From an uncultured Pelagibacteraceae bacterium (lineage in GTDB: Bacteria > Pseudomonadota > Alphaproteobacteria > Pelagibacterales > Pelagibacteraceae), in NCBI GenBank assembly GCA_902626575.1, contig CACOFY010000001.1:62001-126000 (forward strand): 64,000 nt of DNA. The letters are read 5' to 3'. The notes below the pieces were generated by a model. It searched no databases, was not told the DNA's origin, and worked only from the letters and a program-made list of their open reading frames with translations. Of the stretch, positions 28,784 through 32,539 are shown one piece after another. The position numbers and the translations under genes were made by a program. Positions within the stretch are counted from its first letter, which is position 1, and every line of letters starts with the position of its first letter.

Positions 28784-30277
28784 TTATTTTAATGCCATCC
28801 AAGAAATTATTGCGGTAGAATTGTTTGGATTAATATTAGCATTAATTAATATAATTAATAAAATTACTAAAAAGTAAGACAAAACTCCATAACGAGTGCT
28901 TAATTTTTCGATATTATTTCCTAAAAGTTGATTTGTTTTAAGCAATCTAAAAGAGACAACGCTCAAGATATTTGGAATTACCGCATAAATGTATGATGTC
29001 AAAATAATCCAATCTAATACTGTTAAATACTCTAATTTAGGCAATTCCGAGTCGATTACAAAATTGTAAGCAATTAAAGACAGTAGACATACTATCGTGA
29101 CAGTCAGTCTAGCCTCAAGCTCTTTTGGATCAATCCAAACTACTAACCAGCATACTGACAAAATTAATACTATAGGCAAAATAACTTTATACAAATAATA
29201 GCTATGTTTACGCTCTATAACCATTGATAACTCTATTCCAGTTGCGTAATCATCCTCCATGAAAAATGGATTTTGATAATTTAAAATATTAAAATCAAAA
29301 GATTTTATATTCCATCCAGGAATATCATTATTATCTTTTATGTTTGATAATGATAAGTATGAAAGACTACTTTCAAACAGCACAGTATTTGGAATTCTTT
29401 GAAAATCATCAATAATTTTAATTCGTACAGTTTGCTTATCGAATGGAAATGTTTTTAAGTTAAATTTATTTTTTATCGAATATGTTCCTCCTAATTCAGA
29501 AGAAATAAACAAATATTCATCTGAGTTTCCAAGTTTTGTTGAATATGGGGACAATTCATATGTTTTATTATCAACTAAATCTTTATCAGATTTAACTTCA
29601 TTTAGAATTTTGAATCCTTTCTCTGGAGGGTATAGTTTTAAGTCATTAAATTGTTTTTGAGTATAATCACAAACATAGTAAGTGTAAGATCCATCGTCTA
29701 ATTTTAAAATTATATTTTCTTCTACAACGTTCCAAAGTTCAGGGTGACTTTCGGATAAATGCCTTGAAAAAATATCATACTTCATAGAGAATTCGACAAT
29801 ACCGTTTTTTGTATCAATTTTATTAAAATCCAAATATTTGATATCTAATATTGGATTAAAAGTGGTATACTTTGACTTGGTTATTTTCTTTTTGATAATC
29901 TCCTCTTTATTCAATATTTCAAATTCAATTGTATCGTTTTCATTCAGTATTTCAGGGCTAAAATTTTTTTGATTTGCTTTTAATATTTGATCACCCGCTT
30001 TAAAAAACTTTAAATGCTTAGGATCATAAATTCTTCCAACTTGAAAATTTCCATTTTCTTTAGTAAATTTCCAACTTTTAGAATTTTCGTCATATTTTTC
30101 CATAAGATCAAAACCAAAATTTTCAAAATCAACTGAACCTTTATATTTATAATTTAATTGAGCCAAATCATTACTAAATGTTTCACAATTTGATAATGCC
30201 GTATTAATATTTGACATAAGTAAAAAAATAACGATGATTTTTAATTTTAGCAAAATATTAAATAATTTTTTTCTCAT
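28784..30277 (-). CDS. Pentameric ligand-gated ion channel homologue with N-terminal PDZ-like region
   Basis: Signal peptide; FPFDKQTVRIKI (pro-loop-type FPFDxQ); MVIERKHSYYLYKVILPIVLILSVCWLVVWIDPKELEARLTVTIVCLLSLIAYNFVIDSELPKLEYLTVLDWIILTSYIYAVIP aligns by eye with GLIC M1-M3; VGRIYDPKHLKFFKAGDQILKANQKNFSPEI...IEFEILNKEEIIKKKI is PDZ-like. Confidence 0.85.
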   Translation of the reverse strand: MRKKLFNILLKLKIIVIFLLMSNINTALSNCETFSNDLAQLNYKYKGSVDFENFGFDLMEKYDENSKSWKFTKENGNFQVGRIYDPKHLKFFKAGDQILKANQKNFSPEILNENDTIEFEILNKEEIIKKKITKSKYTTFNPILDIKYLDFNKIDTKNGIVEFSMKYDIFSRHLSESHPELWNVVEENIILKLDDGSYTYYVCDYTQKQFNDLKLYPPEKGFKILNEVKSDKDLVDNKTYELSPYSTKLGNSDEYLFISSELGGTYSIKNKFNLKTFPFDKQTVRIKIIDDFQRIPNTVLFESSLSYLSLSNIKDNNDIPGWNIKSFDFNILNYQNPFFMEDDYATGIELSMVIERKHSYYLYKVILPIVLILSVCWLVVWIDPKELEARLTVTIVCLLSLIAYNFVIDSELPKLEYLTVLDWIILTSYIYAVIPNILSVVSFRLLKTNQLLGNNIEKLSTRYGVLSYFLVILLIILINANINPNNSTAIISWMALK

Positions 30278-30944
30278 TTTCTTTTTTTTTTTTACTTTGA
30301 ATCTTTTTTAGTTTTGAAAACATTTTTAAGGCTACAATCCATGAAACAATTATTAGGATAAGCGATATATAAAAGTTAGAAGTGGTAAATAAATTGTAAC
30401 ATCCATGTAAAGTGAAAGGGACTAAAAAAGCAAAAATTAAATTATCACCCTTTTTTATAAAAGCGTATCTCATAAAAAAGTAGCCCATGAAAACTCCAAA
30501 AATCCCGTGTGCAGGTACAGCTGAGAATGACCTTAGAAATGCCATGTAGATTGGTGTTGTTTCATAATAGTCAGCTAAAATATATACATAATAAAAGTTT
30601 TCTAAGGTTGCAAAACCAAGTGAAACAGCAACCCCATATACTATGCCATCGATGGGTTCATTAAAATCTTTCATTTTATAAACTAGAAAATATAAAACAG
30701 CTAACTTTAAACCTTCTTCGACTGGAGCTGCTGTAAAAAAAGAAGATCTAAGACCCTCGTCCATTTGTGTTGAAGCCCAAATTCCACTTAGATAAGTGTT
30801 AATAAAAAAAGCAGGTATTGTTATGAGAATTCCGTAAAAGAATACTTTAATTATCTCAGCATTAGGTTCTTTAAACTTATCTGATAGAACAAAGAATAAT
30901 ATTATAAGTATTGAGGGTAAAATTGTTGCTAACAGTAAAATCAT
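30258..30944 (-). CDS. PrsW-family intramembrane metalloprotease
   Basis: AAPVEEGLKLAVLYFL (EExxK), SFSAVPAHGIFGVFMGYFF, FTLHGCYNLF. Confidence 0.85.
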   Translation of the reverse strand: MILLLATILPSILIILFFVLSDKFKEPNAEIIKVFFYGILITIPAFFINTYLSGIWASTQMDEGLRSSFFTAAPVEEGLKLAVLYFLVYKMKDFNEPIDGIVYGVAVSLGFATLENFYYVYILADYYETTPIYMAFLRSFSAVPAHGIFGVFMGYFFMRYAFIKKGDNLIFAFLVPFTLHGCYNLFTTSNFYISLILIIVSWIVALKMFSKLKKIQSKKKKENEKKII

Positions 30945-31405
30945 TAACTTTTTTCAATTGTTGTTTTAATTTTTAAAATTTTATTCTCCAATGCTTCAAA
31001 AGCATCAAAAATTTCCTTTTTTTCTATTCCTGAGATTTGTTCACCTTTGTGACCCTCTGGATTTTTTGCAGTATTTATGACATCCATTAATTGCCCATGC
31101 AAAATTGTAAATTTTATGAGAAGTTCGTTTAAATCTTGTTGGGATCCTTTAGTATTTTTGATCTCTTTTAAAATTATATATTCGTGGGCTCTTAACAAAT
31201 AAGGTGTTAAACCTCTCTCAACGCATGCTTTATCTATTTTTACAGCATCTTTATGATCCAATTGTTGATCTAAATCAGGGTCGCTGCACTTTCTTAAAAA
31301 TGACTCACTTTTTCCAGTTACCTCTTCAATAACCTTTGACTTAAGATTTTTTATTGCTTCTGTAAGTCCGTGTTCAATTGACGATATTTGTCTTAGCTTT
31401 GCCAT
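30944..31405 (-). CDS. Hypothetical protein with possible HTH (phage CII/regulator-like)
   Basis: EEVTGKSESFLRKCSDPDLDQQLDHKDAVKIDKACVERGLTPYLLRAHEYI; TAATG overlap with PrsW gene. Family call is weak. Confidence 0.45.
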   Translation of the reverse strand: MAKLRQISSIEHGLTEAIKNLKSKVIEEVTGKSESFLRKCSDPDLDQQLDHKDAVKIDKACVERGLTPYLLRAHEYIILKEIKNTKGSQQDLNELLIKFTILHGQLMDVINTAKNPEGHKGEQISGIEKKEIFDAFEALENKILKIKTTIEKS

Positions 31406-31433: not shown

Positions 31434-31472
31434 TTGGACAAATAAAAACTAATAAAATAAGTTTTTGTCCAA
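31434..31472. promoter_or_regulatory. Inverted repeat TTGGACAAA...TTTGTCCAA, putative operator of the minus-strand operon
   Basis: 9-bp perfect arms (31434-31442 / 31464-31472), just downstream on the minus strand of a promoter-like CTTGTA-N16-TAATAT. Confidence 0.55.
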
Positions 31473-31543
31473 TATTATCCACCTCTTTTCACATACAAGA
31501 AATTCTAATCGTTATTATTTTAATTTTATAACGAAAGGAAAAA

Positions 31544-31648
31544 ATGAACTACTTAATAAACTTTAAACCAATTCAGATCAATAATGATCTTGATTTAGTT
31601 AAAAATATAGAAAGGAGGTTATATGAAAAAGTTAGCTTTGATAGTTAG
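31544..31648 (+). CDS. Possible 34-aa leader ORF overlapping the repeat peptide
   Basis: ATG after AAAGGAAAAA; MNYLINFKPIQINNDLDLVKNIERRLYEKVSFDS; its 3' end overlaps the SD and start of the next ORF. Confidence 0.3.
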   Translation: MNYLINFKPIQINNDLDLVKNIERRLYEKVSFDS

Positions 31649-31802
31649 TTTAATATCTATGGTTGCTACTTCATCGCAGGCATTTACGTATAGTTCGCCT
31701 AACATTTACGGTGGATACAACTATTATGGTAACGGATCATTTGGATGGTCATCTCCAAATATATACGGTGGATATAATTACTACGGTAATATGTTCAATT
31801 AA
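31623..31802 (+). CDS. Secreted Gly/Tyr-rich small protein (59 aa) with two SSPNIYGGYNYYGN repeats; absent from the ORF track
   Basis: AAAGGAGGTTATATG start; MKKLALIVSLISMVATSSQAFTYSSPNIYGGYNYYGNGSFGWSSPNIYGGYNYYGNMFN; signal peptide; repeats identical in protein but mostly differing in codons. Confidence 0.85.
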   Translation: MKKLALIVSLISMVATSSQAFTYSSPNIYGGYNYYGNGSFGWSSPNIYGGYNYYGNMFN

Positions 31803-31809
31803 TGTAAAG

Positions 31810-31831
31810 GGCCCCTCAGTAATGAGGGGCC
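31810..31831. other. GC-rich perfect hairpin GGCCCCTC-AGTAAT-GAGGGGCC
   Basis: 8-bp stem, 6-nt loop just after the repeat-peptide stop; no T-tract on the + strand. Confidence 0.75.
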
Positions 31832-31845
31832 AAAAGAAAGTGAAA

Positions 31846-32220
31846 ATGAAAAAATTAATTTGTAAAAATTGTGGACATAAAGAAACTTTAGAAAATATTA
31901 ATTTAAGTATAAGTACAAAAATACTTATTGTAAAAATACCAAGAATTAGGGCTAAAGATGGTTTGCACATTTACCCTCTTTATTGCCTAAAATGTAACTA
32001 TATAACTGAATGGGCTTCAGACCCTTATAATCATTCTGGCAAAGCAATTGATGGGGTTGAATATTTTAAGAAATTCAAAATCAACAACAAGTATAAAAAC
32101 TATTTTCAGAATACTAAAAATAATTTAGTCAATAGAGGCTATACAAAATCTGAGTATATTAAGTTTTCTTTAGCGTGGTTTTTAATTTTATCTGGAATAC
32201 TGGCTTTTTTTCAGTCTTAA
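31846..32220 (+). CDS. Zinc-ribbon protein with C-terminal transmembrane segment
   Basis: MKKLICKNCGHKET...YCLKCNYITEW (CxxC pairs); FSLAWFLILSGILAFFQS. The ORF track start at 31663 is in the same frame but overlaps the repeat peptide. Confidence 0.75.
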   Translation: MKKLICKNCGHKETLENINLSISTKILIVKIPRIRAKDGLHIYPLYCLKCNYITEWASDPYNHSGKAIDGVEYFKKFKINNKYKNYFQNTKNNLVNRGYTKSEYIKFSLAWFLILSGILAFFQS

Positions 32221-32221
32221 T

Positions 32222-32539
32222 TTAGACAGCACCAGTAAGGATATCTCTAAACTGAATTATTATTCCGAGAACAACTGCAACTTTTGCTAATACCGCCCAA
32301 TGTTTGGGGCCTTTATATTTATCTGATGATCTCCATATTCCAACAGTCGTATATATTAACCAAGGTATTATCAAACCATAAACTGCATGAAAATGAAGTC
32401 CAATACTTAGTATTATGAGGGCACTTACAAAACCAAAAGCAGCACTTAAAAGGACACCTACAAGCCAATAAGATTTTACTAAAGAAACATCTCCATTCCA
32501 AAAATCTACAAAGAAATTATTATTTTTTTTTCTAGCCAT
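32222..32539 (-). CDS. Small membrane protein of unknown function
   Basis: 105 aa with hydrophobic helices LVGVLLSAAFGFVSALIILSIG and VYGLIIPWLIYTTVGIW. Confidence 0.65.
   Translation of the reverse strand: MARKKNNNFFVDFWNGDVSLVKSYWLVGVLLSAAFGFVSALIILSIGLHFHAVYGLIIPWLIYTTVGIWRSSDKYKGPKHWAVLAKVAVVLGIIIQFRDILTGAV

Follow-up and report, generated by a model that had tools for sequence, protein, structure and literature searches.

The window, a 64,000-nucleotide stretch of a contig from an uncultured Pelagibacteraceae bacterium, contains at 31623-31802 on the forward strand a gene for a 59-aa peptide with predicted export, MKKLALIVSLISMVATSSQAFTYSSPNIYGGYNYYGNGSFGWSSPNIYGGYNYYGNMFN, recognized from its reading frame, its homologs and its dN/dS ratio, and referred to here as a class A cassette. 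It is preceded by a strong Shine-Dalgarno site, AAAGGAGG (31611-31618, forward), and the sequence reads as a signal peptide over residues 1-20 (31623-31682, forward), ending in ..SSQA and leaving a mature part of 39 aa that is 33% aromatic and 54% G/N/S/T. Within the mature part lie two 14-aa repeats on the forward strand, repeat 1 (SSPNIYGGYNYYGN, 31692-31733) and repeat 2 (31749-31790). Pairwise comparison of the two copies gave 12 base differences, affecting 10 of 14 codons, and no residue difference; one of the differing codons is a Ser AGT/TCA pair, which no single silent step can bridge. When 12 random substitutions were introduced into repeat 1, the minimum was 2 residue changes and zero was never reached in 200,000 simulations, indicating that the identity of the repeats in protein is not due to chance. 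An earlier note on this DNA had described the open reading frame, its Shine-Dalgarno site and signal peptide, and the two repeats that differ only by synonymous changes in 10 of 14 codons; we found all of these elements in place, and the codon comparison agrees with its count.

Two single-cell genomes of Pelagibacteraceae, AG-899-N21 (L005, whose contig is also that of G255/L007) and AG-426-D13 (L006), carry homologs at the corresponding position, at 75% and 66% identity, and both homologs retain the frame, the signal peptide, the Shine-Dalgarno site and the two repeats. In the mature part, dN was 0.166 and dS 1.49 (dN/dS about 0.1) between the window and L005, the nearer homolog, and 0.19 and 1.89 between L005 and L006. 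The intact frames of the homologs, and the low dN relative to dS, indicate on comparative grounds that the window gene is translated and under purifying selection on its protein, as the earlier note had argued; we searched the homologous repeats for the frameshifts and stop codons that it had named as refuting this, and found none. The repeat copies within each of these two homologs differ at 3 of 14 residues. At the I-Y/V-F positions, the same residue pair occurs in both copies inside each gene, suggesting that the copies change together there. The variant in copy number that the note had proposed looking for exists in a further relative, G170 (L008/L061), which has three repeat copies, so that copy number in class A is 2-3.

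The window peptide matched no family in Pfam, NCBIfam, PHROG or PADLOC, and a PDB sequence search returned only chance matches. A single-sequence search for close homologs in 61 genomes gave nothing above chance level, the peptide had no match in viral contigs or phage records, and an Rfam scan of the leader and slot described below had none either.

Organization of the locus

Divergent from the peptide gene, on the reverse strand, are genes for a 153-aa CII/CP76-like regulator (30944-31405; PF06892, 28.6 bits, cutoff 26), a 228-aa intramembrane protease of the PrsW family (30258-30944; PF13367, 121.9 bits) and, by predicted folds, a 497-aa pentameric ligand-gated ion channel (pLGIC) with an N-terminal periplasmic PDZ-like domain (28784-30277). 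Because the protease scored 145.8 bits against the NCBIfam PrsW equivalog, under its cutoff of 225, we make no claim of orthology for it. The channel is predicted to have a pLGIC fold with four transmembrane helices, from a model with a mean pLDDT of 78.5 and best Foldseek matches to DeCLIC, sTeLIC, GABA-A and ELIC. An AF2 model of the channel N-terminus resembled a PDZ domain (pLDDT 84.5), with top Foldseek matches to the PDZ-containing proteins CtpA, HtrA3, EpsC and DegS (E 0.002-0.08, probability mostly 0.95-1.00), and in the L044 channel the PDZ domain exceeds the Pfam cutoff. The arrangement is varied in L006, where the pLGIC is short (389 aa), and in L074, where PrsW and the pLGIC are separated by other genes. 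As a side observation, two different PDZ-pLGIC paralogs stand in tandem in L046 (6823-9940), L047 (7100-10203) and L069 (6860-9948); these are shuffled between loci, the second copy of L047 resembling the single copy of L045.

The divergent promoter, itself conserved, holds a candidate operator (31434-31471), recognized by sequence conservation and composed of TTGGACAAA at 31434-31442 and an inverted TTTGTCCA at 31464-31471. The starts of the half-sites are exactly 30 bp apart; both halves are found in 14 of 15 loci and one half in L061, and they are exact in 12 loci, with base variants in L044 and L046. Locus comparison placed a constant left border, AACGAAAGGAAAAA plus ATG, at 31530-31546 on the forward strand; in the loci scored, 134-142 bases separate this ATG from the regulator start. 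On this side the operator/promoter, the ribosome site and the ATG are all constant. The slot peptide begins at this ATG in loci that have no leader. A leader ORF of 27-28 aa lies ahead of the peptide in classes A (L061 excepted), B and D (classes are defined below), and in relatives its TGA and the peptide ATG overlap. A one-base difference from G540 shifts the frame in the window, resulting in a 34-aa leader (31544-31648, forward) that overruns 26 bases into the peptide gene. The constant right border, also established by locus comparison, is a hairpin directly after the stop codon, GGCCCCTCA-GTAA-TGAGGGGCC (31810-31831, forward), whose sequence varies and whose pairing is kept in all loci scored. 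Beyond it are a 124-aa zinc-ribbon protein (31846-32220, forward), which is absent from some loci, and a convergent membrane protein of 105-107 aa (32222-32539, reverse), which occurs near the slot in 13 of 15 loci, with a weaker match in L044 and no match in L006.

Peptide classes in the slot

Genome searches with the regulator and the peptide yielded 15 SAR11 loci, from draft single-cell and metagenome-type assemblies of varying completeness, and 4-11 kb around most of them were compared. By sequence, a Sec-type peptide occupies the slot between the constant ATG and the hairpin in all 15, its signal peptide being judged by eye from a positive start, a hydrophobic stretch and an AxA-type site. 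Six unrelated classes of peptide were distinguished: class A with PN[IV][FY]GG repeats (window, L006, L061, L074), class B with GYWSHTPxxGGGW (L044, L048), class C with a 21-aa four-Cys peptide (L045, L047, L068, L069, L071), class D with AGYVCKPNIYGGQTCVYSEYAF (L043), class E with DWLGNYVC repeats (L042), and class F with NWDNSSLNW repeats and a beta-flower-like tail under the Pfam cutoff (L046, L070). A common PNIYGG suggests that class D may be distantly related to class A. The slot products range from 21 to 82 aa, and include Cys peptides of 21-22 aa and non-repetitive peptides of 31 aa; the mature peptides are near-neutral or acidic, rich in G/N/S/T and aromatic residues, and neither cationic nor amphipathic. 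When classes B, C, E and F were scanned against Pfam and NCBIfam, every match fell under the threshold. An aromatic residue is found among the last three positions in 14 of 15 slot peptides; since the peptides are aromatic-rich and represent only six independent classes, we treat aromatic C-termini as PDZ ligands only as a lead. A match of another slot peptide to the Cor superinfection-exclusion family (E 0.16) covered residues 1-25, mostly signal peptide, and was discounted. Away from the slot locus, genome G322 encodes a class B-like peptide (L072, 5308-6762) in a group of further small secreted peptides, among them one that has YNPMTGEW-type repeats, and a sigma-factor-like gene adjoins.

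Exchange of cassettes

The DNA of the window and that of G543 are 96.3% identical over 1311 bp on the left and 95.2% identical over 866 bp on the right, and between these flanks the two are unalignable, G543 having a different peptide of 88 aa. Among G543, G540 and the window, the regulators are 98-99% and the PrsW proteins 91-96% identical, and the three peptides are different. A similar swap was seen in the pairs window/L043, L042/L043, L046/L069, L046/L068, L005/L071, L048/L071 and L005/L048. In every different-class pair tested, similarity on the left ended at the first ATG (relative position 145-161) or, in classes A, B and D, at relative position 252-263, which is inside the signal-peptide region. 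In these three classes, left similarity thus covers the leader and reaches into the signal peptide, and only the mature part differs. Similarity returned at the hairpin or close to it, or later; in pairs with L043 or L046 the return is later because a downstream gene, too, is absent or differs. Pairs of the same class were collinear. The tree of regulator plus PrsW required 9 class changes among 15 tips, and each multi-member class was rejected as a single clade (AU p 1e-55, 1e-6, 1e-174 and 0.003). Together, these sequence comparisons show that the content of the slot has been replaced wholesale, repeatedly and independently of its flanks.

We asked whether any neighbor changes along with the peptide, covering the regulator, PrsW, the PDZ and transmembrane parts of the channel, the 107-aa protein and the zinc ribbon, and found none that co-varies with peptide class (permutation P 0.09-0.58, with limited power at 15 loci). 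At P <0.05, none of these neighbors is closer within than between classes; within the scope of 15 loci, this speaks against the locus encoding a receptor or immunity gene specific to the allele. For the PDZ domain, no tracking of peptide class was seen (P 0.19), which gives a specific lock-and-key relationship no support.

Distribution and probable mobility

Of 397 genomes searched in the order, 10 had a regulator match at E <1e-50, a distribution by which the module is accessory in SAR11. A member of another SAR11 family, G048 (L073), keeps the linkage but arranges the genes differently, in the order regulator, pLGIC, PrsW, class E peptide and DUF2130. More distant regulators (43-50%) mostly adjoin a pLGIC and a trypsin-like protease, PrsW being replaced; L049-L059 (e.g. 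L049, 380-4458) encode distant regulator homologs, pLGICs and secreted trypsin-like proteases, and L049 also encodes a caspase-like (Peptidase_C14) protein.

In G139 (L086, 6572-7386), a class E gene adjoins the tmRNA gene on its 3' side, and the 14 kb of sequence covered there do not contain the module. The last 27 bp of the tmRNA gene are perfectly repeated 519 bp away, with the class E gene as the sole gene enclosed; on its sequence, this site is the footprint of an integrated element of very small size, or of what remains of one. IMG/VR viral contigs encode relatives of class F (43-44% identity), 175 aa in length (L075, 189-716; L076, 4785-5312), that have a hydrophobic stretch followed by an NWDNS repeat, one adjoining a DNA-polymerase-like gene and another a helicase-like gene. 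From these class E and class F occurrences, mobile DNA seems to carry the peptide genes from place to place. Viral contigs had no match for classes A and E, and classes A, B, E and F and the viral form had no match in 50,697 phage records. PADLOC gave no match for the peptide, regulator, PrsW or channel. Directly after the slot in L006 (5283-9373) are genes for an HSP90-type ATPase and a protein matching PADLOC helicase/MzaC models, which resemble a defence gene pair.

Discussion

Our preferred reading, to which we assign a probability of roughly 0.4, is that the gene at 31623-31802 encodes a Sec-exported peptide from an allelic cassette slot belonging to an accessory SAR11 module with a CII-like regulator, PrsW and a PDZ-pLGIC. 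The exchange of cassettes is visible in the alignments, and the slot would provide a module for sensing or conflict at the envelope with a hypervariable cassette for exported peptides. The regulator would bind the common operator, co-controlling the peptide and the sensing operon, and the peptide would act outside the inner membrane, where the sensing branch of PDZ channel and PrsW would have in it an exchangeable partner, be it a ligand, a bait or a decoy. Cassette swapping of this kind usually arises from conflict with phages or rivals, and because no gene beside the slot changes along with the peptide, we suggest that an outside antagonist, phage or competitor, may diversify its identity. 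Counting against the preferred reading are the lack of tracking between PDZ domain and peptide class, the short pLGIC of L006, the genes interposed between PrsW and the pLGIC in L074, and the class E peptide that occurs by itself at the tmRNA gene of G139. A more specific version, in which a channel of the neurotransmitter-receptor type reads the exported peptides through its fused PDZ domain, together with PrsW and the CII-like regulator, and strains trade cassettes as in an arms race, appears to us unlikely.

The slot peptide could instead be phage-type cargo that protects the envelope against phages or superinfection by blocking adsorption or DNA entry, with variation tracking phage types. 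The class F relatives on viral contigs, the class E gene between 27-bp direct repeats at tmRNA, the shuffling of classes over the regulator and PrsW tree, and the ATPase and helicase/MzaC-like genes beside the L006 slot are all consistent with this; however, neither the phage records nor PADLOC yielded a match in the searches described above, and the constant association of the slot with PrsW and the PDZ channel is left unexplained. Cor/Llp-type superinfection-exclusion genes and other cargo encode small envelope-directed proteins on mobile DNA, as the slot genes may do, but the latter have a fixed chromosomal place in a regulated host module and no significant family match. We consider such a role possible, though doubtful.

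Short Sec-exported peptides with a conserved export part, a variable mature part and allelic replacement also recall a bacteriocin-like toxin against kin, whose alleles would be kept diverse by a rarity advantage and to which a neighbor such as PrsW would give immunity. CPBP-like proteins function in bacteriocin immunity. Small Sec-exported bacteriocin loci share with the slot a short exported peptide, its own regulator, an adjoining membrane protease and allelic variety. Immunity is expected to change with the allele, however, and G543, G540 and the window combine closely similar regulators and PrsW proteins with three peptides, no co-varying neighbor was found among the 15 loci, and the near-neutral or acidic composition is unlike that of a classical membrane-active bacteriocin. 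In polymorphic toxin systems, export and processing parts are constant, C-terminal products are exchangeable, and peptidases including PrsW accompany the toxins (PMC3482391). The slot too has an exchangeable payload behind a constant part, but it has no toxin domain of recognized fold, no PrsW fusion and no co-varying immunity gene, and its products are of 21-82 aa. On balance, a toxin against kin seems distinctly improbable.

The earlier note had proposed, from its Gly/Tyr/Asn-rich repeat, a self-assembling or surface-binding peptide. The Tyr/Gly/Asn-rich composition of the window peptide and a repeat copy number of 2-3 would suit a structural peptide that assembles or coats a surface, but no Pfam, NCBIfam or PDB relative was found, and sister genomes fill the same slot with unrelated peptides, some of them non-repetitive and some Cys-rich and as short as 21 aa, so that the repeat cannot be what the locus requires; nothing specific supports the proposal, which we think very improbable. 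That the ORF is non-coding or a chance occurrence, the RNA leader being what is conserved, has next to no chance of being correct, since the conserved hairpin and upstream leader would fit it but the dN/dS of about 0.1 in the mature part, the codon-level conservation, the intact homolog frames and the Rfam result do not.

For the preferred reading, that of an allelic cassette in a sensing or conflict module, two known signaling schemes offer parallels. In envelope stress sensing of the DegS/PrsW type, a PDZ domain senses C-termini and PrsW cleaves an anti-sigma factor. The module likewise combines a periplasmic PDZ domain, an intramembrane protease and a regulator, but its PDZ domain sits on a pLGIC, no anti-sigma gene was recognized nearby, and a variable exported peptide lies opposite. 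In agr-type signaling, which uses polymorphic peptides, a variable exported peptide is similarly accompanied by adjoining sensor genes and a membrane protease; the module differs in having no two-component sensor, and in that no co-variation with the peptide was seen for its sensor domain. We found no earlier description of such a module in SAR11 in the open-access literature.

SAR11 genomes are streamlined, and to our knowledge few conflict or communication systems are known in them. That a short slot exchanges unrelated peptides with export signals between flanks of about 96% identity points directly to diversifying selection acting on the cell envelope. We are also aware of few natural ligands for bacterial pLGICs, and the conserved link of the slot to a PDZ-bearing channel and an intramembrane protease provides a testable candidate class of such ligands. 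Were the exported peptides indeed read by the PDZ-bearing channel, the version that we consider unlikely, the module would be a peptide-gated bacterial pLGIC system of signaling or immunity.
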